Below are positions 11,112-46,052 of a stretch of 63,731 nt of DNA, piece after piece. This DNA is from a virus, in the IMG/VR virus record IMGVR_UViG_3300029908_000026, positions 1 to 63,731 of that record, one strand, 5' to 3'. The position numbers and the translations under genes are program-made. The notes beneath the pieces were generated by a model. That model was not told the origin of the DNA, did not search any database, and was given only the letters and a program-made list of their open reading frames with translations. Each line of letters starts with the position of its first letter. Position 1 is the first letter of the stretch.

Positions 11112-11132
11112 CCCCGGCCTAAAGGCACGGGG
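11112..11132. repeat. IS605 end hairpin on the tnpB side
   Basis: The imperfect palindrome reads, on the minus strand, CCCCGTGCCTTTAGGCCGGGG. It overlaps the last codons of tnpB and in this family would be part of the right end, from which TnpB-associated omega RNA is also produced. The same 16-base core occurs alone at 55765-55780. Confidence 0.7.
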
Positions 11133-12321
11133 ATTTAGCCGAGTCCTTCACCAACACCAAATCGCCATGCGGAACGCACGATTCAGAGTCAATATCGACA
11201 GACCCGATGCTTTTAGCGGCTTTAATGCTCGCCGTCTCCGAAGCGTTGCACGCTATGGAGACAGACCGCGCCCGGATGTTCTTCGAGGCTTGGCGGTCTG
11301 CGTCGTCCTTGTGGCCGCACTTCTGACAACAGAAGCGCAAGCCTTTCCGGTTCGATGCCGAGACATGGCCGCAGGCACTACACCCACGGCTTGTGTTGCG
11401 AGGACTGACCGCTTCCAATTCAATTCCAACGGCGGCTGCCTTGTATGCGATCTTGAATCGCATATCGGCGTAAGGCCATCGGTGAACCTTGGAACGCAAG
11501 TCCTTCCCTTTGCTCAGAGAACTGTCTCGTATATTCTCCAAGTTTTCGACCACGACCTTTCTTGCTCCGACTTCAACCGCGTAGCTGACCAGTGCCTTAC
11601 TTGCTGTGTGGAGCAAGTGCGCTGTTACGGCAGCCTCGTGCCCGGACATCCTTTTCAGGAGTCGCCGAGCACTTCTGGTGCCAACAGACTGAACAGCAGC
11701 GCGGGTGCGCCGGATACAAGAACGACGGTGATTCAACACCCCGCCGTGGAAGAAAAATGGTTTGGCGTTTGCCGAGTTGGTAGCGACCAGCATTCGCTTG
11801 ATGCCGAAATCACAGCCGACAATGCAGCCCTCGGTCTTTGGCTCGGGGATCTCGACTTCGTGAGCCAAGCAGAGAAACCACTGCCTGCCGACGCGCTTGA
11901 TCTTGGAGTCTTTCCATGCGCCTTCCGGCAATGGGCGGGAATCAGCAACGGTCAAAAGTTCACCCCAAAGCGTGACGCCTTTTTGGGTGCGATTGAAGTC
12001 CCGCTTCCACACCACAGGGATCACGGCGCGGGAGAACTTAGCCAATCTCCATCGCTTGTTCGATCTGGCGGTCTTGTAGGTAGCGCAGACTGTTTTGCAG
12101 AGAGAGCAGGCCAACTGAGACGGCAACCCCATCTCCCGGAGGTTGGCGTAGTGGGCTTTTGCCAGTCGATTCGAGTTCAATTCCTCGGTCTTGAAGACAA
12201 TGTCGGAAAGCCAGTTCGCCGCCTTCAACCAAACAGTAAGCAACCCGTCAGCTTTTGTGCTGCCGGAAATTTTGAGCTTGACTGTGCGGATTGCTTTCAC
12301 TACATTGAATACTACTACCAA
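11119..12321 (-). CDS. tnpB: TnpB RNA-guided nuclease of an IS605-type element
   Basis: The 400-residue protein shows the split RuvC site of TnpB: Asp in IVGCDFGIKRM (about residue 170), Glu in KVVVENLENI, and the final Asp in DDADRQASKNI. The four-cysteine zinc ribbon lies in between (CSACG ... CCQKCG). All catalytic residues are present, so it may be active. TnpB proteins cut DNA guided by RNA from the element's right end and help retain the transposon. It ends inside the end hairpin at 11112-11132. The long open frame on the opposite strand is its shadow. Confidence 0.93.
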   Translation of the reverse strand: MVVVFNVVKAIRTVKLKISGSTKADGLLTVWLKAANWLSDIVFKTEELNSNRLAKAHYANLREMGLPSQLACSLCKTVCATYKTARSNKRWRLAKFSRAVIPVVWKRDFNRTQKGVTLWGELLTVADSRPLPEGAWKDSKIKRVGRQWFLCLAHEVEIPEPKTEGCIVGCDFGIKRMLVATNSANAKPFFFHGGVLNHRRSCIRRTRAAVQSVGTRSARRLLKRMSGHEAAVTAHLLHTASKALVSYAVEVGARKVVVENLENIRDSSLSKGKDLRSKVHRWPYADMRFKIAYKAAAVGIELEAVSPRNTSRGCSACGHVSASNRKGLRFCCQKCGHKDDADRQASKNIRARSVSIACNASETASIKAAKSIGSVDIDSESCVPHGDLVLVKDSAKSPCL

Positions 12322-12330
12322 GAAAAAACA

Positions 12331-12753
12331 ATGTCAACCGAATTACGAAGAAATAATCACAGCGTCTCCAGATTGCTCGTGCATCTGGTTTTCGTCGTGA
12401 AATACCGCCATGCGGTGATTTCAGATTCGGTGTGGACAAGCCTTCGCTACGGATTCGATCTTTCCGCCAAGCGTCTGGACTTGGTTCTCGTGGAACTTAA
12501 CCACGACAAAGACCACGTTCACCTTGTTGTCGAGTATCCGCCAAAAGTCAGCATCTCTGAAATGGCGAATGCCCTTAAAGGAAACAGTTCCTTTGTAGCA
12601 CGGAGAGACTGCAAGGACGAGCTTCGTAAAAAACTGTGGGGTTCCGCTTTTTGGACTCCTAGCTTCTTTGCCGCTTCCTGTGGAGGCGCACCAATCGAGA
12701 CGCTCAAGCTTTACGTTCAGTCACAACAAACCAAACCCGGAAAGGCGTCCTAA
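12331..12753 (+). CDS. tnpA: TnpA, Y1 (HUH) single-strand transposase
   Basis: The 140-residue protein has the IS200/IS605 transposase features: N-terminal LLVHLVFVVKYRHAVIS, the metal-binding HUH motif in DKDHVHLVVEYPP, and the catalytic tyrosine in IETLKLYVQSQ near the C-terminus. It cuts and rejoins single-stranded DNA at the element's hairpin ends. It starts nine bases from the divergent tnpB start. The stop lies within the right hairpin (TAA of GTCCTAAAGGAC). Length and motifs are complete, suggesting a functional element. Confidence 0.93.
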   Translation: MSTELRRNNHSVSRLLVHLVFVVKYRHAVISDSVWTSLRYGFDLSAKRLDLVLVELNHDKDHVHLVVEYPPKVSISEMANALKGNSSFVARRDCKDELRKKLWGSAFWTPSFFAASCGGAPIETLKLYVQSQQTKPGKAS

Positions 12754-15774: not shown

Positions 15775-16224
15775 ATGGCAGATATTTTCAAAGCTACAAG
15801 AGGTACAGTGATGAAGAGCAGTGATGGTGCTATGGGCATCTTGACTCTGTCACTTGCCCCGTCTGATTTTTTGATATTCACTGGTGTTGCAATCCAGAGG
15901 AATCAAGTGACCCAATATGTCAAAACTCTTGATAGTTCAATCTACGGGTATGCATGGGGAGAGGGTCCAGGTAGAATTATTATAAGCGGTATAATCTTTT
16001 TGAACCCCAATTGTGCAGCAACATCTGGGGATGGAGTTGGAGTGGTTAATGAGTTCTACACATCAAGTAATGTGTATGCTCAGTCCGGTCCGATTTCTGT
16101 GTCTCTTGGTAGTACTACTTTCCTTGGGTATCTAGAGGGTATGAATATATCTGCAGAAATGAATGAATTCAATTTTGCTAATTTCACCCTGGAGATGTCT
16201 ATAATCAATGGAGGGAAATCTTAA
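15775..16224 (+). CDS. Baseplate-region structural protein, 149 residues
   Basis: The ATG at 15775, one base after the tape measure stop TAAC, is preferred over an upstream in-frame ATG inside the previous gene. The protein is beta-rich (GYAWGEGPGRIIISGIIFLN ... GPISVSLGSTTFLGYLEGMN) with a helix-poor end, resembling a tube-like or tail-tip adaptor fold. Its position between tape measure and hub fits a protein that joins tube and baseplate hub. I do not recognise a named family. Confidence 0.5.
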   Translation: MADIFKATRGTVMKSSDGAMGILTLSLAPSDFLIFTGVAIQRNQVTQYVKTLDSSIYGYAWGEGPGRIIISGIIFLNPNCAATSGDGVGVVNEFYTSSNVYAQSGPISVSLGSTTFLGYLEGMNISAEMNEFNFANFTLEMSIINGGKS

Positions 16225-31102: not shown

Positions 31103-31534
31103 ATGGAACAGGATTGCGATTTTATTCCACCAACGGTTCTTGGGTGCACTGGTCCATCTACTAGCGTAGAACCACTGTGCCCAAAGATTAATACAGCTCC
31201 ACCACCACTTTCTGTATCACTGGAAGGAGTACAAGGATGCACTGGCCCTACTGGGCCTGCAGGTACTATTGCTGTAAGTACTGGGCCGGCAGGACCTCCT
31301 GGACCAGCGGGTGGTATCGGTCCACAGGGTCCGGCGGGGCCAGTTGGACCTCAAGGTGGCGATGGAGTTGTTGTTGGAGCTACTGGGGCGATGGGGTCGG
31401 TTGGACCAGTTGGAGCTACTGGGGCGAGGGGGGCAACAGGATTTGGTCCTGGCGTGGGGCCACAAGGTTCTGATGGAGGTGGAGGGATTTCCACTGGCTG
31501 TTCTCCGTGTTCTATTTGCCTATTCATGCAATGA
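31103..31534 (+). CDS. Collagen-like repeat protein, copy 1
   Basis: The 143-residue protein starts [20 protein letters not shown] and [18 protein letters not shown], a cysteine-containing head shared by all three copies. Gly-X-Y collagen-like repeats follow ([33 protein letters not shown]) at about residues 48-125. It ends with [11 protein letters not shown]. Such proteins form rigid triple-helical rods and often decorate phage fibres or tails. The stop overlaps the ATG of copy 2. Cysteine clusters at both ends may lock trimers or bind metal. Confidence 0.8.
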
Positions 31535-31944
31535 CCCAAGACTGTTTATTTAATGACCCCATAATTTTAGATTGCCCAACAATTTCTGTTGGTGTGGATC
31601 CACTGTGTCCAAAGATACAACCAATTCCACCAACTTCTGTATCTAATCAAGGTATAGATGGACCAGTAGGTTGTACAGGTCCAGCAGGGTTAATCTCTCC
31701 CCTATCTGTAGGATTACCAGGCCCCCTTGGTCCAGCTGGTCCAGTTGGCCCTGTCGGCCCAGCCGGTCCTGCAGGCCCCGCTGGCCCTGTTGGTCCTACT
31801 GGTCCCGTGGGTCCCGTAGGCCCTGTTGGTCCCACTGGAGTTGTGGGAGGAGTTGGGCCAACGCCATCAGCTGGTGCAGCTGGATCTCCTGGTGGAACTG
31901 GTGGATCTATGTGCAGTAGTTGTGTAAAATGTACCTGGGCTTAA
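31531..31944 (+). CDS. Collagen-like repeat protein, copy 2
   Basis: The ATG at 31531 (ATGA overlap with copy 1) is chosen because it begins [20 protein letters not shown], aligned with the other copies. The middle is almost pure GPx repeats dominated by GPV and GPA ([20 protein letters not shown]), then [20 protein letters not shown] and a [10 protein letters not shown] end. The repeats are so regular that all reading frames and the antisense strand stay open; only this frame is real. 137 residues. Confidence 0.8.
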
Positions 31945-31945
31945 T

Positions 31946-32377
31946 ATGGAATCTGACTGCTTATTTAATGCACCGGTAATTCAGGGGTGCGAAGTCCCAT
32001 CTGGACCCATAGATTCACTATGCCCTAAAATACCTAAAACTGTAGTTTCTGTAGCACTAGATGGTGCGCCAGGCCCTATTGGCTGTACAGGCCCTACGGG
32101 GCCGTATAGTGAGGCAGTTGCTGGTCCTGTTGGTCCTGTTGGTCCTGTTGGTCCTGCTGGACCTGCTGGACCTGCTGGACCACAGGGTGGTGCCGGTCCT
32201 CCTGGGAATCCTACTCCCGCTGGTAGTATTGGACCTACTGGACCACAAGGGGCTACTGGTCCTATAGGTCCCACTGGGATACCAGACTTTAGTACTCCCG
32301 TAGCTACTGGCCCCGTTGGTCAGGTTGGATGTGCTGGCGGGACAGATGGTGTTTGCTATCAGGCTATTTTTCAGTAA
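31946..32377 (+). CDS. Collagen-like repeat protein, copy 3
   Basis: The 143-residue protein starts [20 protein letters not shown] and has the same DSLCPKI head as copies 1 and 2. [20 protein letters not shown] repeats follow, then [10 protein letters not shown] and a short cysteine-containing end ([16 protein letters not shown]). The three copies probably form hetero- or homotrimeric rods in the fibre complex. Confidence 0.8.
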
Positions 32378-36866: not shown

Positions 36867-37508
36867 ATGAAAAACTCAATTAAAATAATTTGCCATTACT
36901 GTGATGAACCAGCCTACAAACCCAAGGGAGAAATAAGTAGGCAAATTAGAAAGGGGGCAGACAAGTTCTTCTGCTCCCTTTCTTGTTCTGCAAGCTATAG
37001 GAACTCAATAAGACCAAATAGGGTAGTAGAAATACATGCAGTGTGTCCACATTGCAAAAAGGAGTTTGATACAGTTTCTGGTAAGAATAGAAAAACTTTT
37101 TGTACCCCAAGCTGTGCATCAAGGGGGAGTATAACTGAAAATAGATTAGAGGGTAACGCCAGGGGTGGTAGGGCTACGTGTGGAACAAACCTTATTTCGG
37201 TTGAAGAAACTCTAAAAAAGAGAGAGGCATGGAAATATGTACGCCTGAAAGATTTTCTTGAATTTCAAAAAGAAGCGTATGAGTTTGAGTACAGGATCCC
37301 TACCCTTGACTTTGTCCACGACCTTGCTCTAATAAACAGAAAAATAGTTGTAGAGTTTGATGGAGACGAGCACGAAAGCATGAAAGCAGAGGACTCTTAC
37401 AGAGATGGTATTTTGCGTAGCTCTGGGTGGTCAGTATTTAGGATACCAACCAAAAGCAATGCAGTTATTCCACCAGAAGTTCTTTACCCAATTTTAAAAC
37501 AAAATTAA
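36867..37508 (+). CDS. Zinc-finger plus PD-(D/E)XK endonuclease, probable homing enzyme
   Basis: The 213-residue protein has two N-terminal zinc-finger-like units (CHYC ... CSLSC and CPHC ... CTPSC, residues about 9-90). A Vsr/DUF559-like nuclease domain follows: YRIPTLDFVHDLALINRKIV, VEFDGDEHE and RDGILRSSGWSVFRIP, where the Asp of LDFV and the Glu/Asp of VEFDGDEH are the likely metal ligands. Proteins of this build are often mobile endonucleases inserted beside RNA genes. It stands alone between the tmRNA and tRNA-like segments, and its stop codon lies within the 5' strand of the first tRNA-like stem. The start ATG at 36867 has no Shine-Dalgarno. Confidence 0.75.
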   Translation: MKNSIKIICHYCDEPAYKPKGEISRQIRKGADKFFCSLSCSASYRNSIRPNRVVEIHAVCPHCKKEFDTVSGKNRKTFCTPSCASRGSITENRLEGNARGGRATCGTNLISVEETLKKREAWKYVRLKDFLEFQKEAYEFEYRIPTLDFVHDLALINRKIVVEFDGDEHESMKAEDSYRDGILRSSGWSVFRIPTKSNAVIPPEVLYPILKQN

Positions 37509-40900: not shown

Positions 40901-42112
40901 ATGTTAGGAGACGAAGAGTATCCATTGGCAGACATTGTCGATGAGATGAAGTACCCTTTTTGCCCAAAGTGCAAATCAAAGGTAGTAGCAGTCAGTAGTC
41001 AGCACTCGGTGTGCCTTGGGAATTGCAAATGGATCGGACCATCATCTAGCATCCTAAGGGGGAATGTCATTCTTAAGTCACTGATTGCTCAGGAAGGATT
41101 TATCAATCTTTCGTATGGATCACCCAATGGACTAAAGAAGATTGCACAGGATATAGCGAAGAACAAGAATTTCCCTGGGGGAGATGATGAGATAGATGGT
41201 AGAGATGTTGGAGCAGCGAGGTGCTTTATCCCCAAGTTTGACGAATTTGGGGAAGAAAGTGACATCGAAGACTTCATGGAGTCTACTACCAAAAAGAGTT
41301 TTAGACTTGGTATGTTCAACCACATGGAAAAAATTGCAGCTATGACTGCGTGCGCAATGCGCAGTAGCCTTACCCACAAACTACTCCGGTTTGCTACATC
41401 CAGGGTTGTTGATCAAAACTCAATGGTAAGCAATAGGGAATCGTATCTGCTTGGTGATGACAAAACTCCCAATCCAGATCTGTTCCGCAAGAAAGCTGCT
41501 ATAGAGGTAGACAACAGGAAGTCTGATGAATTTATGACAGTTGTAGATATTTATTCTAGCTCTTATGGTAGACCGGACACATCTTTGCATGCAAAGTACA
41601 CCAAAGAGGGAAGTATTCTACAGAATGAATATCCATCAATGAGTATCTCTAAGCACGCGATGACTTGGCAACCACTCTATTGGCCAGCTATGAATCTCGA
41701 GTCAGATGACCTAATTCGACTAGCTGCGGTTCTTCAGGGTGGAGACGAGAACATCACCTATATTGTGACAGAGAGTATGGATACTGGAGAGTTCCATGCT
41801 GGAGTATACAAGAGAGAGGTCTATAGCCCAGGAGCTCATTTTATAAAATCCAAAGCAACTACTGTGGAGGATGCGATAAATAGAATCAGAACCTCATTTG
41901 AGAAAGCTATTGTAGCTGCAGACAGGTCTGGACATATCTTAGATTTTTCCTGGCTTCAAGATTGGCAACAGGATATCCCATCAGATACAGCGTTCTTTGA
42001 TATATTGACTGCCCCATTTTGGGATGAGTCAATAGCTTCAGAGATGTTGCACCTGATCGGTCTTTCTAAGAATCAAGTATTAAAAGAAATGTACGAAGAA
42101 ACACAACAATAG
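40901..42112 (+). CDS. Unknown protein with N-terminal zinc ribbon, 403 residues
   Basis: Near the N-terminus YPFCPKCKSKVVAV and HSVCLGNCKW form a four-cysteine zinc ribbon (residues about 20-45). The rest is mixed alpha/beta with no recognised motif; segments include RNVILKSL-type helices, VVDIYSSSYGRPDTSLHAKY and DENITYIVTESMDTGEFHAG. The start follows an A/C-rich leader (AATACACCAAACAAACAAAA) found in similar form before other right-half genes. The 3' end converges with the terminase gene, eight bases apart. It may bind nucleic acid, but this is speculation from the zinc ribbon. Confidence 0.5.
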   Translation: MLGDEEYPLADIVDEMKYPFCPKCKSKVVAVSSQHSVCLGNCKWIGPSSSILRGNVILKSLIAQEGFINLSYGSPNGLKKIAQDIAKNKNFPGGDDEIDGRDVGAARCFIPKFDEFGEESDIEDFMESTTKKSFRLGMFNHMEKIAAMTACAMRSSLTHKLLRFATSRVVDQNSMVSNRESYLLGDDKTPNPDLFRKKAAIEVDNRKSDEFMTVVDIYSSSYGRPDTSLHAKYTKEGSILQNEYPSMSISKHAMTWQPLYWPAMNLESDDLIRLAAVLQGGDENITYIVTESMDTGEFHAGVYKREVYSPGAHFIKSKATTVEDAINRIRTSFEKAIVAADRSGHILDFSWLQDWQQDIPSDTAFFDILTAPFWDESIASEMLHLIGLSKNQVLKEMYEETQQ

Positions 42113-42119
42113 GGGTCCA

Positions 42120-45100
42120 TCAATAATTCCCGAATCTACCGACTTCCATTCCGATGTCGTTGATGTAGGAAGCATTGATAGATAGGTTCGTAGCCATACC
42201 AGCCATTGACGGCAAATCTGTAATACCTAGGGCTGCCATGAAGATGGCATATCCAAGGGCGTGCAGAAAGTCGTCTGGCTTGTCCTGATAGCGGCTGTAG
42301 CGTCGAATAGTGGCTCCATGAGAGTTTGTTGCGTCCTCAGTGAAGGTAGCGAGCAAATCTCTGGAATACTGCTCGAACCAGCCTCCCTTAGGAAACCGAA
42401 TCCGCTGAGCCTTGATAAGAGTGAACACGATGTAAATCAGTGTTGTTCTATCTACGGTAAAGCAATTGTTGGTATTGGGCATGAAGAACTTCTTGGTGGT
42501 CCCATAGGCAATAGAACCTGTGGGCACCCCCATGTAGGCTCCAAGGTTGGGGTTCTGTACGGATCCAACGAATCCAGCATCAGCTCCTACAATTTCAATT
42601 CTACTTCCGGTTACGCTTTTGAGGTAATCTCCGATAACATAGTGACGCTGCTCATCCGGCAATCCTGTGGGCCTAATAGCCCCTAGAACGTCGAAGCAGC
42701 CGTCTCTGTACCCGACGGCTACACCAACAGTAAAGCTGACCACCTCAGCACCGCCCCAGTCAACGCCCCCAGCTACCCTGTGGTAGATCTGAGCGTTTGG
42801 TGGTTCGTGTTGGTCTATGTCTAAGATACTAGCCTCTTTAATGTCCTTCTGAGTGATTGGAACACCGCCCTGTGAGGTGGGTATTCCTAAGCACTCTTGG
42901 AGAAATCTAGATTGTGAATATGCGCTAGACCCATGAAGTTTATTATAAATAGTTTCGATGTATCTATCGTGTGGAAATATACGGTCTGGAACAATAATTT
43001 GGGGGACATGATACCCCTCTGAGTCACGGTGGATTGGGTCGTATTCGTACGACCTAATCCACTTTCCTCTGGTCACATCTATTACCTTGCCACATTTTAT
43101 GCAGCAAATCCCTTTGATCTGAATCATTTCCAAAACTCTTCCAGCTTCGGTAGGTACATTTTCGTGCCCACACCCACATTTCATTATCCACTCGTTTTGA
43201 GTCGAGTTTTCAAAAAGCTTGGTAAGTGTGTTGTCAACGCCACGAGCGGTTCCGAAATAGCTTTCGTATCGATAATCAGATGTTCCTAATGTTTCTCTAA
43301 TCTGAGGAATGAAGTCTGCATTAAGATCCTGACAGTTGTGTACGCCTATCCCGTTAGCAAAGAATGTGTGGTTCTTCTCTGTCTCTATATCATATACATC
43401 ATCTACCCCAAGGTAGGCAATCCCGACGATGTCTGAGAAGTCCTCAGTGCTTCCTTTTTCTTGAGTTTGTTTTCTCTCCTTTTTTGTATCTGTTTTGCAT
43501 GGCGCACTGGATCCTGTCTCAGCCTCATTCCGGTTTCCCTTCCCCTTTTTCTTGAAGCCTCTAAGTTCTCCCAGTATCTCTCTTTGCGTTTTGTGTTCAT
43601 GGCGTCTCGATTCCTTTCCACCCATCTTGTCTTTACTCCCTTCTTGGCGATAGCACTGCACTTCTCGCCACAATACGGTTGGATCCCATTCCCCACGAAT
43701 GGTTGCCCACAGAGCCTGCATGGCTTCTCCAGGTTTACTTCCTGATAGGCCCACTTGTACTCCATCTCTGGGAATGAGTATATCCTGGTGTTTTCTAAGA
43801 GCACCTTGGTCCCAACCACATCCACTGTGATTATGTAATACGTCTTGTTCCTGCTTTTCTTCTTTATTTTTATGGCTTTGCAGCTCACTCCATTTTCTTT
43901 TAACCAGCTCACCAATAGACTGGATTCCTCTTTTGAGAATGATTGGGTATTGAACACAAAACTTCTCCCTGTATTGGATAGGCTCCCATCGTCCATCATC
44001 CACCACGCAATCGCTTCCCAGGTCAAGTGTTTGACCCATTCTTGAGTTACCTTCTTCTTTGGCAAGCCCTTGTCTGAAGTACCCGTGTAGCAGATCTGGT
44101 GTATAGAGTCTAGGCATGGAGCACTTAGGGATCCAAAAACGCAGCTTTTCTCCCCCCAGCCCCTGTTCTCTACAATCTTGGGCTTTGTCCTCACTAGGTC
44201 CCCCAACACTTCCGCTTTGCGGTTGCAGTATCGTTCCTGACACTGGCCGTGTGTTACGTAATACTTGGGGTGGGATCTTGGAGTGGTACCACCCACTTTT
44301 GTCAGACAGGAATCTCCCAATAGTGTCCCAAAGACCATTTGCTCTTGACTGTGATTTAATGGCCTTAGCTTTGCTTGCTCTTGGGCATCTGTTAGCTTCA
44401 TGCCACGGTAGTATTTCTGCAAGGTATATCCATCCCCTGTCGGACATGATTCGCTCGTTCCCTGTGCAGTCGAGGTGGTCCCCGTTGGATAAAATGATTC
44501 GCCAGACGTGTCGTTTGCCTTTGTGCTTAATTGATTTAATTGTGTCATATTCTAATTTTAACGTTGATTCGTTAAATCCAACAATACGATCCCCTGGTTT
44601 TTTGTCAACTAGAGTGTCAAGATTGATCCCGTCAAATAGGGCTGTAGAGCCCAAATTGCATTCATCCAGGTAAACTTCATCGGTCGTCACCCCCAATGAA
44701 TTAGATACGTTATTGAAGCAAGAAATGCCCACAAATCTGCTCCCACTTACATAACTCTTTTCGTTGACATTAGCTGTACAGGTGTTATTCACAACCGGCC
44801 ATGGCAATAGCTTGCCCTGGGTCATTGGAGCCATAAACATTGAGTGTAGACGCTGAGTATAAATGCTTAGTGGGGCAACATACATTACTCTAAAATATGA
44901 CCTCCACCAGCAGTTCATTAATATAGATGCACTGATGCTCGTAGATTTTCCTAATTGACGAGCGCACATGTAAACATGCTTTCTAACCTTTCTGGTTTTG
45001 CTAAAAATCCCAGCAAACATCGGACGACGGTGTAAAATATTTAAAGGTTTCCCTTGGAAACTTATACTTGCGGGTACTAGGTCGACCAAGTCGATCTTGT

Positions 45101-45164
45101 TTGATAGTTGGCCATACAGGCGCTCCAGTTCCTTATCGCTTACTGGGATGATTTGTTTGTCCAT
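42120..45164 (-). CDS. Terminase large subunit containing an intein
   Basis: The 1014-residue precursor holds a DNA-packaging ATPase-nuclease. Walker A is a variant, CARQLGKST (residues 67-75), and Walker B is VYLDE (164-168). An intein (169-610) splits the gene exactly after the Walker B Glu, so splicing would restore LDECQDLNADF. The C-terminal part has a CxC...CxxC zinc site (MKCGCGHEN ... CCIKCGK) and RuvC-type nuclease acids in GGVDWGGAEVV, IVGADAGFVG and KPDDFLHALGY. The mature protein would have 572 residues, a usual TerL length. It cuts and pumps phage DNA into the procapsid. It is read leftward, opposite to most genes. Confidence 0.92.
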   Translation of the reverse strand: MDKQIIPVSDKELERLYGQLSNKIDLVDLVPASISFQGKPLNILHRRPMFAGIFSKTRKVRKHVYMCARQLGKSTSISASILMNCWWRSYFRVMYVAPLSIYTQRLHSMFMAPMTQGKLLPWPVVNNTCTANVNEKSYVSGSRFVGISCFNNVSNSLGVTTDEVYLDECNLGSTALFDGINLDTLVDKKPGDRIVGFNESTLKLEYDTIKSIKHKGKRHVWRIILSNGDHLDCTGNERIMSDRGWIYLAEILPWHEANRCPRASKAKAIKSQSRANGLWDTIGRFLSDKSGWYHSKIPPQVLRNTRPVSGTILQPQSGSVGGPSEDKAQDCREQGLGGEKLRFWIPKCSMPRLYTPDLLHGYFRQGLAKEEGNSRMGQTLDLGSDCVVDDGRWEPIQYREKFCVQYPIILKRGIQSIGELVKRKWSELQSHKNKEEKQEQDVLHNHSGCGWDQGALRKHQDILIPRDGVQVGLSGSKPGEAMQALWATIRGEWDPTVLWREVQCYRQEGSKDKMGGKESRRHEHKTQREILGELRGFKKKGKGNRNEAETGSSAPCKTDTKKERKQTQEKGSTEDFSDIVGIAYLGVDDVYDIETEKNHTFFANGIGVHNCQDLNADFIPQIRETLGTSDYRYESYFGTARGVDNTLTKLFENSTQNEWIMKCGCGHENVPTEAGRVLEMIQIKGICCIKCGKVIDVTRGKWIRSYEYDPIHRDSEGYHVPQIIVPDRIFPHDRYIETIYNKLHGSSAYSQSRFLQECLGIPTSQGGVPITQKDIKEASILDIDQHEPPNAQIYHRVAGGVDWGGAEVVSFTVGVAVGYRDGCFDVLGAIRPTGLPDEQRHYVIGDYLKSVTGSRIEIVGADAGFVGSVQNPNLGAYMGVPTGSIAYGTTKKFFMPNTNNCFTVDRTTLIYIVFTLIKAQRIRFPKGGWFEQYSRDLLATFTEDATNSHGATIRRYSRYQDKPDDFLHALGYAIFMAALGITDLPSMAGMATNLSINASYINDIGMEVGRFGNY
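43335..44660 (-). mobile_element. Intein inside the terminase Walker B motif
   Basis: The intein starts with Cys169 (CNLGSTALFDGINLDTLVDK, block A) and has block B at LDCTGNERIMSDRGWIYLAE. It ends with block F/G, VYDIETEKNHTFFANGIGVH then Asn610, followed by Cys611 of the host protein. All nucleophiles for splicing are present. Between residues about 255 and 575 the intein frame encodes only a Lys/Glu/Gln/Arg-rich sequence, because the homing endonuclease of this region lies in another frame. Confidence 0.88.
43403..44401 (-). CDS. LAGLIDADG homing endonuclease nested out of frame in the intein
   Basis: In the frame offset by one base from the terminase, an open frame spans 43403-44548. It contains MVFGTLLGDSCLTK and WEAIAWWMMDDGSLSNTGR, the two LAGLIDADG-type helices with acidic residues, separated by about 100 residues as in intein endonucleases. 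A zinc-like motif (CRLCGQPFVGNGIQPYCGEK) and a basic tail follow. The likely internal start is ATG 44401 (MKLTDAQEQ), just before the first conserved helix; 44548 is the earliest ATG. It would promote spread of the intein. How it is expressed, by internal initiation or frameshifting, is unknown. Confidence 0.75.
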   Translation of the reverse strand: MKLTDAQEQAKLRPLNHSQEQMVFGTLLGDSCLTKVGGTTPRSHPKYYVTHGQCQERYCNRKAEVLGDLVRTKPKIVENRGWGEKSCVFGSLSAPCLDSIHQICYTGTSDKGLPKKKVTQEWVKHLTWEAIAWWMMDDGSLSNTGRSFVFNTQSFSKEESSLLVSWLKENGVSCKAIKIKKKSRNKTYYIITVDVVGTKVLLENTRIYSFPEMEYKWAYQEVNLEKPCRLCGQPFVGNGIQPYCGEKCSAIAKKGVKTRWVERNRDAMNTKRKERYWENLEASRKRGRETGMRLRQDPVRHAKQIQKRRENKLKKKEALRTSQTSSGLPTLG

Positions 45165-45259
45165 AAATAATAGAAACCACTTGTAATAGTGGTGGCAGTT
45201 AAAATAAATAAGCTAAAAGGGGTGTTCAGTAAAGAAATTATTGAACACTTTATAAATAT

Positions 45260-45424
45260 ATGTATAGTCAAGCATTACAATTCTTGTTTGCGCACATCGA
45301 AAGATTTGGTGAAAAAATAGTTCTTGCATCCTGCTCCAAAAGAATGGATAAGGTATTACGAGCACCAACCTTTGAAGAGCTATATGAGAATCCACAACGA
45401 TATAAAGGTCGCTTCCTTGTATAA
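45260..45424 (+). CDS. Small protein, 54 residues
   Basis: This short frame encodes MYSQALQFLFAHIERFGEKI and continues to PTFEELYENPQRYKGRFLV. It has the composition of a real soluble protein and clear coding bias. It lies in the otherwise empty gap between the terminase start and the gene at 45464. A TATAAATA sequence at 45251-45258 is identical to a T4-type late promoter core, but it is only one base from the ATG. No function can be proposed. Confidence 0.5.
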   Translation: MYSQALQFLFAHIERFGEKIVLASCSKRMDKVLRAPTFEELYENPQRYKGRFLV

Positions 45425-45463
45425 AGGAGCACCAACAATTGGTAATGTTACAAATAATTAAAG

Positions 45464-45862
45464 ATGAAAAACAATAAGCCCCTAACAGCTTACAGCAATA
45501 GTAAGCAATTCCTTTGCTGCGTAACTGGAGAAGTTATCCATCCCGAGCGGGTGGAGTATCTCCTTGGGGAGGGAGTATTAGAATACAACCTAACAAGTAT
45601 CAATGGTGCCAACGCGACCTATAGGCCAAAAAAGATTATCGTTGTCGACGACGAAGGAACTGAGTTCTTTTGTGACAAGATTGACGAAACTAGGGCCTGG
45701 TCAGAGGAGCGTTTTGGAGCAGATGCAGATGAAGATTCGATCCCAGAGGAGACTGAAAGAAAAGTCCCCAAAAAGATCGAAGAGGCTTCCCCTGCTCTGA
45801 TTCATGAAAGTCTCGACGTTGTTATCAAAAAAGAGGATACTGAAGAGGATGATTTCTCGTAG
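45464..45862 (+). CDS. Acidic protein, 132 residues, unknown
   Basis: The protein begins with a lysine/asparagine-rich leader and FLCCVTGEVIHPERVEYLLG, then IIVVDDEGTEFFCDKIDETR. It ends in a strongly acidic tail (GADADEDSIPEETERKVPKK and a final EDTEEDDFS) likely to be disordered. No domain is recognised; CCVTGEVIHPERVE has the look of a small zinc-binding unit of the 'C..CG..I...R' type, but one cysteine pair is missing. A short overlapping frame follows. Confidence 0.5.
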   Translation: MKNNKPLTAYSNSKQFLCCVTGEVIHPERVEYLLGEGVLEYNLTSINGANATYRPKKIIVVDDEGTEFFCDKIDETRAWSEERFGADADEDSIPEETERKVPKKIEEASPALIHESLDVVIKKEDTEEDDFS

Positions 45863-46052
45863 TCCAAATTTGTTTTTATCCAAGGGCGGTGAACCTTCGT
45901 TTGCGAAGTTTCAGCCATCTAAATCCTTGATCTTTGATAAGTTGCCCACAATCAAACAAATCACACAAACACATGAACGGTCTAACGAATCTGATTCTAT
46001 CAGTGACGGTCCTAGTGCTGACGGCAGCACTGTGCAAGAAACAACTTGTTGA
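45849..46052 (+). CDS. Possible small protein, 67 residues
   Basis: The frame starts at an ATG 14 bases before the previous stop and encodes MISRSPNLFLSKGGEPSFAK and a Ser/Asp-rich end. It overlaps the start of the small membrane protein at 45973 by 80 bases in another frame. Coding signal is weaker than in the neighbours, but without it the stretch 45863-45972 would be empty in a very compact genome. Regard as uncertain. Confidence 0.35.
   Translation: MISRSPNLFLSKGGEPSFAKFQPSKSLIFDKLPTIKQITQTHERSNESDSISDGPSADGSTVQETTC

Follow-up and report, generated by a model that had tools for sequence, protein, structure and literature searches.

In the usual description, an intein is a splicing domain that may or may not contain an in-frame nuclease. 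The gene for the terminase large subunit in a 63,731-nucleotide stretch of viral DNA (IMG/VR record IMGVR_UViG_3300029908_000026; the whole stretch is referred to here as the window) raises the question of whether an intein can also carry its homing endonuclease in another frame of the same strand. We consider it very probable that this gene contains a splicing intein whose homing endonuclease is a separate, internally initiated gene overlapping it in the +1 frame. A preliminary description of the window had suggested two proteins on one strand, and this proposal is supported by permutation statistics, 58 loci with an out-of-frame nuclease, selection ratios, a conserved start, and structure predictions.

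Organization of the terminase gene and its intein

The terminase gene covers positions 42120 to 45164 of the minus strand, on which the intein and the nuclease are also encoded, and its 1,014 codons contain no internal stop. The 168-amino-acid N-extein (44661 to 45164) ends at the Walker B motif (...VYLDE), and the C-extein (42120 to 43334), which is matched by the PHROG terminase large subunit (E value of 9e-29), starts with Cys+1 (CQDLNADF). The intein had been placed exactly behind the Walker B LDE, and this placement holds: its 442 residues, C1 to N442 (44660 to 43335), lie directly after LDE and before Cys+1, and their removal leaves exteins of 572 amino acids. The intein consists of (i) an N-terminal splicing half with blocks A and B (residues 1 to 86; 44403 to 44660; Pfam Intein_splicing, 1.3e-9), (ii) an open, unstructured filler (residues 87 to 405; 43446 to 44402), and (iii) a C-terminal splicing half with blocks F and G and the terminal HN (residues 406 to 442; 43335 to 43445; TIGR01443, 4e-8). 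Both PF14890 (Intein_splicing) and TIGR01443 were matched better than their curated cutoffs, and the splicing residues Cys1, H441-N442, and Cys+1 are all present. The claim that blocks A, B, F, and G are intact thus stood for the splicing motifs at both ends but not for block B, which in the alignment reads T66-G-N-E69, with Glu replacing the His of the TxxH motif. The nearest relative, L024, likewise lacks this His (TSDS); the remaining aligned members keep TxxH. This motif is not an absolute requirement in known inteins, and the insert remains classed as an intein despite this caveat.

Both LAGLIDADG motifs were confirmed to lie one base off the intein frame (+1), in an open reading frame (ORF) flanked by stops at 44554 and 43405 that matches PF03161 (LAGLIDADG_2; E value of 1.5e-24). 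The longest ORF in this frame encodes 381 amino acids (43403 to 44548), of which the first 49 codons are probably outside the enzyme; from the likely start at ATG 44401, the nuclease has 332 amino acids (43403 to 44401). Invariant residues in alignment A3 are G29 and D30 of motif 1 (MVFGTLLGDS; 44309 to 44338) and D137, D138, and G139 of motif 2 (AIAWWMMDDGSLS; 43976 to 44014). The sequence, alignment A3, and a match to phrog_8660 (0.0012) further point to a Cys-rich, zinc-knuckle-like stretch (C..C...C...C; 43658 to 43720) followed by a basic helical tail.

The AlphaFold (AF2) model of the 332-residue nuclease showed a confident I-SceI fold, with a predicted local distance difference test score (pLDDT) of 90 and structural matches to I-SceI (E value of about 3e-14) and I-WcaI (about 9e-14), and its sequence profile matched 6x1j at 6e-31. 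The window nuclease combines the features of an I-SceI-like homing endonuclease: two LAGLIDADG motifs, the conserved acidic residues D30, D137, and D138, and, by its structural match to I-SceI, the pseudo-symmetric two-fold architecture. The model of the intein frame folded only at residues 1 to 86 and 406 to 442 (block means mostly 70 to 90; pLDDT mostly 73 to 88 in the N-terminal half). The top match of these halves was the Ssp DnaB mini-intein (1mi8), which supports a Hint fold with moderate confidence only, and the approximately 320 residues between them were modeled as disordered filler (pLDDT mostly 28 to 46). Both models were built on about 20 sequences. An endonuclease-like, free-standing gene with Cys-rich repeats is also present in the window, at positions 36867 to 37508.

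Stop codon avoidance in the intein frame

Over the 323 endonuclease codons, the intein frame contains no stop. When the endonuclease gene's own synonymous codons were shuffled and the stops in the intein frame counted, a mean of 11.9 and a minimum of 2 stops were obtained, and none of 100,000 permutations reached zero. Recoding with the codon usage of the phage gave an expectation of 23.7 stops, so that 11 to 24 would be expected across the filler, and the third frame contains 28. At junctions where the synonymous choice of NNT would create a stop, T was used in 0 of 63 cases, versus 44 of 139 elsewhere in the same gene. An open intein frame by chance, already judged improbable in the preliminary description, is excluded.

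Recurrence in phages and cyanobacteria

Single-protein searches returned only the identical contig or a few relatives. A profile search with a three-sequence alignment of the nuclease core (a six-sequence alignment was too diverse) yielded 80 viral and 80 genomic loci. Among these loci and the phage hits, the nuclease frame differs from an open host frame with an intein C-motif at 58 loci and is in frame at 34. The out-of-frame loci include phage FoX3, viral contigs, and approximately 43 cyanobacterial dnaX genes, and most are inserted directly after a DE that resembles Walker B, in genes for terminases, helicases, and DnaX (the latter in approximately 43 cyanobacterial genomes). No host-frame stop was found at any locus tested, with 2 to 24 expected except for the short broken copy L140 (0.6). 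As an empirical control, open alternative sense frames were counted across the 170-codon core: 58/58 out-of-frame loci have one, compared with 1/34 in-frame loci and 1/66 of the other loci, where the single case is a truncated dnaX copy. The nuclease was present in 25 of the 291 cyanobacterial genomes sampled, and no cyanobacterial match to PF03161 was found among 14 control genomes.

Two frame offsets occur, the host frame being nuclease+2 in the window and other viral contigs and nuclease+1 in FoX3, L082, and cyanobacteria. All +1 members form one supported group in the tree; for the +2 members, the tree as drawn requires as many as six changes, with which a single origin may still be compatible. 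It is likely that these loci represent one widespread intein class, found in cyanobacterial dnaX as well as in the terminases and helicases of phages, in which an I-SceI-like endonuclease is an independent overlapping gene with internal initiation, and that the two offsets reflect probably more than one capture of a nuclease by a mini-intein. Since relatives of this nuclease family are found in bacterial 23S rRNA genes, several of them beside group I introns, the captured nuclease was likely intron borne or free standing. A group I intron in the window itself was considered and rejected, as no Rfam match up to an E value of 1 was obtained within 42000 to 46000. Two further observations concern members of this class: a terminase (L056, 1927 to 5470) is interrupted twice, by a mini-intein and, downstream of it, by an intein whose nuclease is out of frame, and the cyanobacterial DnaX inteins L206, L207, L205, L134, and L146 have in-frame deletions across the nuclease, shrinking toward mini-inteins.

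The comparison of synonymous rates in both frames that the preliminary description had proposed for related phages was replaced by one of cyanobacterial relatives, as the window and its single close relative are identical. An overlap-aware substitution count on dnaX gave a dNN/dSN of about 0.19 to 0.36 for the nuclease and a dNN/dNS of about 0.7 to 1.15 for the filler, the latter varying with the assumed transition bias; both are counting estimates from related sequences and simpler than a full model. In cyanobacteria, the nuclease frame is therefore under strong purifying selection, and the overlapping filler is near neutral and mainly kept open. All of the 63 cyanobacterial intein copies (a few of which recur in different searches) have an open host frame, and 8 of the 63 have a broken nuclease frame. 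Such an asymmetry is to be expected from a required host protein and a dispensable nuclease.

Mobility is illustrated by FoX3, whose helicase contains an insert of 314 amino acids exactly where the sister phage FoX5 has none, with flanks that are 92 to 98% identical. FoX1, FoX2, Murka, and M29 likewise match and lack the insert. The out-of-frame nuclease gene is unannotated in FoX3.

Probable translation start and proposed homing cycle

In cyanobacteria, the predicted nuclease start is an ATG within GG-ATG-G, the Gly-Trp codons that follow block B. The Gly codon that creates this ATG is GGA in 44 of 45 cases, versus 34% GGA in the exteins (Fisher, 4e-18, uncorrected for kinship). The exception is a mini-intein from which most of the nuclease is deleted, and the single Ala variant at this codon is GCA, which retains the ATG. 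An AGG or AGA codon is often found upstream, and GGAG(G) is located 9 nucleotides upstream of the nuclease start in L034, L036, and L047. By homology (alignment with L031 and L034), the window nuclease probably starts at ATG 44401, 24 codons ahead of motif 1. Resemblance of the surrounding RGMKLT to an intein linker had raised the idea that an ancestral in-frame endonuclease slipped by an indel near 44412; this idea was rejected, as the homologues make the Met of RGMKLT the likely nuclease start.

The following cycle is proposed. Ribosomes starting at the terminase ATG would read the intein frame, and the Hint halves (residues 1 to 86 and 406 to 442) would excise themselves together with the disordered filler and join the 572-residue terminase. 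Other ribosomes would start within the intein, probably at ATG 44401, and produce the I-SceI-like nuclease. This enzyme would cleave terminase alleles that lack the intein, at the codons for Walker B, and the intein would be copied into the break during repair.

Assessment of alternative explanations

Both open frames, the predicted LAGLIDADG and Hint folds, and recurrence are documented for the window; selection on the nuclease frame and the conserved start come from the cyanobacterial relatives, and precise insertion between near-identical phages comes from FoX3 and FoX5. Several points weigh against a spliced intein with an overlapping nuclease gene. The selection ratios were obtained in cyanobacteria and not in the lineage of the window. 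Splicing may be slow or altered because the block B His is replaced by Glu. No Shine-Dalgarno sequence precedes ATG 44401; such sequences were found in 5/39 genes of the window phage, compared with 11% in the background, which suggests a host with Shine-Dalgarno-independent initiation. The two assemblies described below may derive from related samples. Lastly, splicing, translation, and cutting in the window phage are what we infer from these data.

The preliminary description had feared two compensating single-base sequencing or assembly errors that mask an ordinary in-frame endonuclease. A lone metagenomic contig would look alike, and the same nuclease family does occur in in-frame inteins (KLEP7), but window positions 15980 to 63731 have a gapless counterpart, differing by 8 mismatches, in another IMG/VR contig of 73,391 bp, and the 3,045-bp terminase gene is identical in both. 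In addition, an accidental frame would carry the 11 to 24 stops expected, both frames shape synonymous codon choice, and the same layout is found in FoX3, which is an isolate genome, and in cyanobacterial genomes by the dozen. Such an artifact can be practically dismissed. With programmed frameshifting, ribosomes would leave the intein frame for that of the endonuclease and might later return, which would yield a fusion product and dispense with an internal start. It would need both frames as well, and the proposed start in the window lacks a recognizable ribosome-binding site. However, cyanobacteria retain the in-frame ATG by means of a synonymous host codon, often with AGG or AGA upstream, three loci have GGAG(G) at a fixed distance from the start, and no single type of shift fits all members because both offsets occur; we therefore regard frameshifting as quite improbable.

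Only a little less improbable is that the window endonuclease is an untranslated relic and that only the open intein frame matters now. Decay is predicted by the homing cycle and is seen in the 8 broken cyanobacterial copies, and the evidence of selection on the nuclease frame comes from cyanobacteria. The window nuclease, however, is intact throughout its 332 codons, retains every invariant residue, and is modeled at high pLDDT, and its codon choice avoids stops in the intein frame while the nuclease is kept. It is very unlikely, finally, that the insertion stays unspliced and the endonuclease gene is tolerated within the terminase. Out-of-frame HNH insertions without splicing domains have been described (PMC11855218), and the loss of the block B His would be in line with this option, but intein hidden Markov models match both ends, from which a Hint fold is predicted, Cys1, the terminal HN, and Cys+1 are present, and the insertion is at the Walker B motif of an enzyme that phages need.

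Relation to known systems

The preliminary description knew of no standard description of inteins with out-of-frame endonucleases. A near precedent, itself no intein, is the ShiLan domain, published in 2025 (PMC11855218), which belongs with comparable HNH insertions that lie out of frame in methylases of phages. Like the window element, ShiLan is a mobile insertion in a phage gene with a host frame open throughout and a homing-type nuclease with its own start in another frame. Unlike it, ShiLan has an HNH nuclease and no splicing domains, whereas in the window a splicing domain flanks a LAGLIDADG nuclease. On out-of-frame endonucleases in inteins, our literature search found only the ShiLan paper and a follow-up; its coverage extended neither to Liu and Hu 1997, on the DnaX intein of Synechocystis, nor to Gorbalenya 1998 ("Non-canonical inteins"), and priority is uncertain.

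Conventional bifunctional inteins (PI-SceI and the KLEP7 RNA ligase intein, L015) share with the window element the Hint blocks, a nuclease located between blocks B and F, and presumed homing. They differ in that their nuclease is in frame; the window has a separate gene for it, which is overlapped by intein-frame sequence encoding disordered filler. The fold and motifs of the nuclease are those of I-SceI and I-WcaI (PDB 1r7m and 6x1j; PF03161), but these are intron encoded, whereas the window nuclease is intein borne and out of frame and has the additional Cys-rich and basic tail. In the helicase of Pectobacterium phage Amona (PQ008971; L019, 941 to 4147), intein halves also flank an out-of-frame LAGLIDADG gene; there, however, 13 stops interrupt the host frame and the C-part is provided with a separate ATG, and this locus is possibly a natural split intein or a broken one. 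The cyanobacterial DnaX inteins retrieved here have an out-of-frame nuclease and mostly exactly 430 amino acids, the length of the Ssp DnaX intein of Synechocystis PCC 6803, and it is on this length that the comparison with Ssp DnaX is based. Protein splicing is documented only for mini-inteins derived from Ssp DnaX (PMC3443213, PMC3620165).

Because the nuclease is here a separate overlapping gene, some large inteins without a recognizable endonuclease may conceal one, and annotation overlooks such genes, as in FoX3. The out-of-frame design would provide a route by which mini-inteins regain mobility through nuclease capture and connects intron and intein homing. As a long natural same-strand overlap (about 200 to 500 codons) with dozens of homologues, it should also help in research on internal initiation and on how overlapping genes evolve.

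Other features of the window

An IS200/IS605-like pair is located at positions 11119 to 12753, with a TnpB-like ORF on the minus strand and a Y1-transposase-like sequence on the plus strand, both recognized by eye only. Three consecutive collagen-like (GPxGP) proteins, probably fiber parts, are encoded at 31103 to 32377, adjoining the tail genes.
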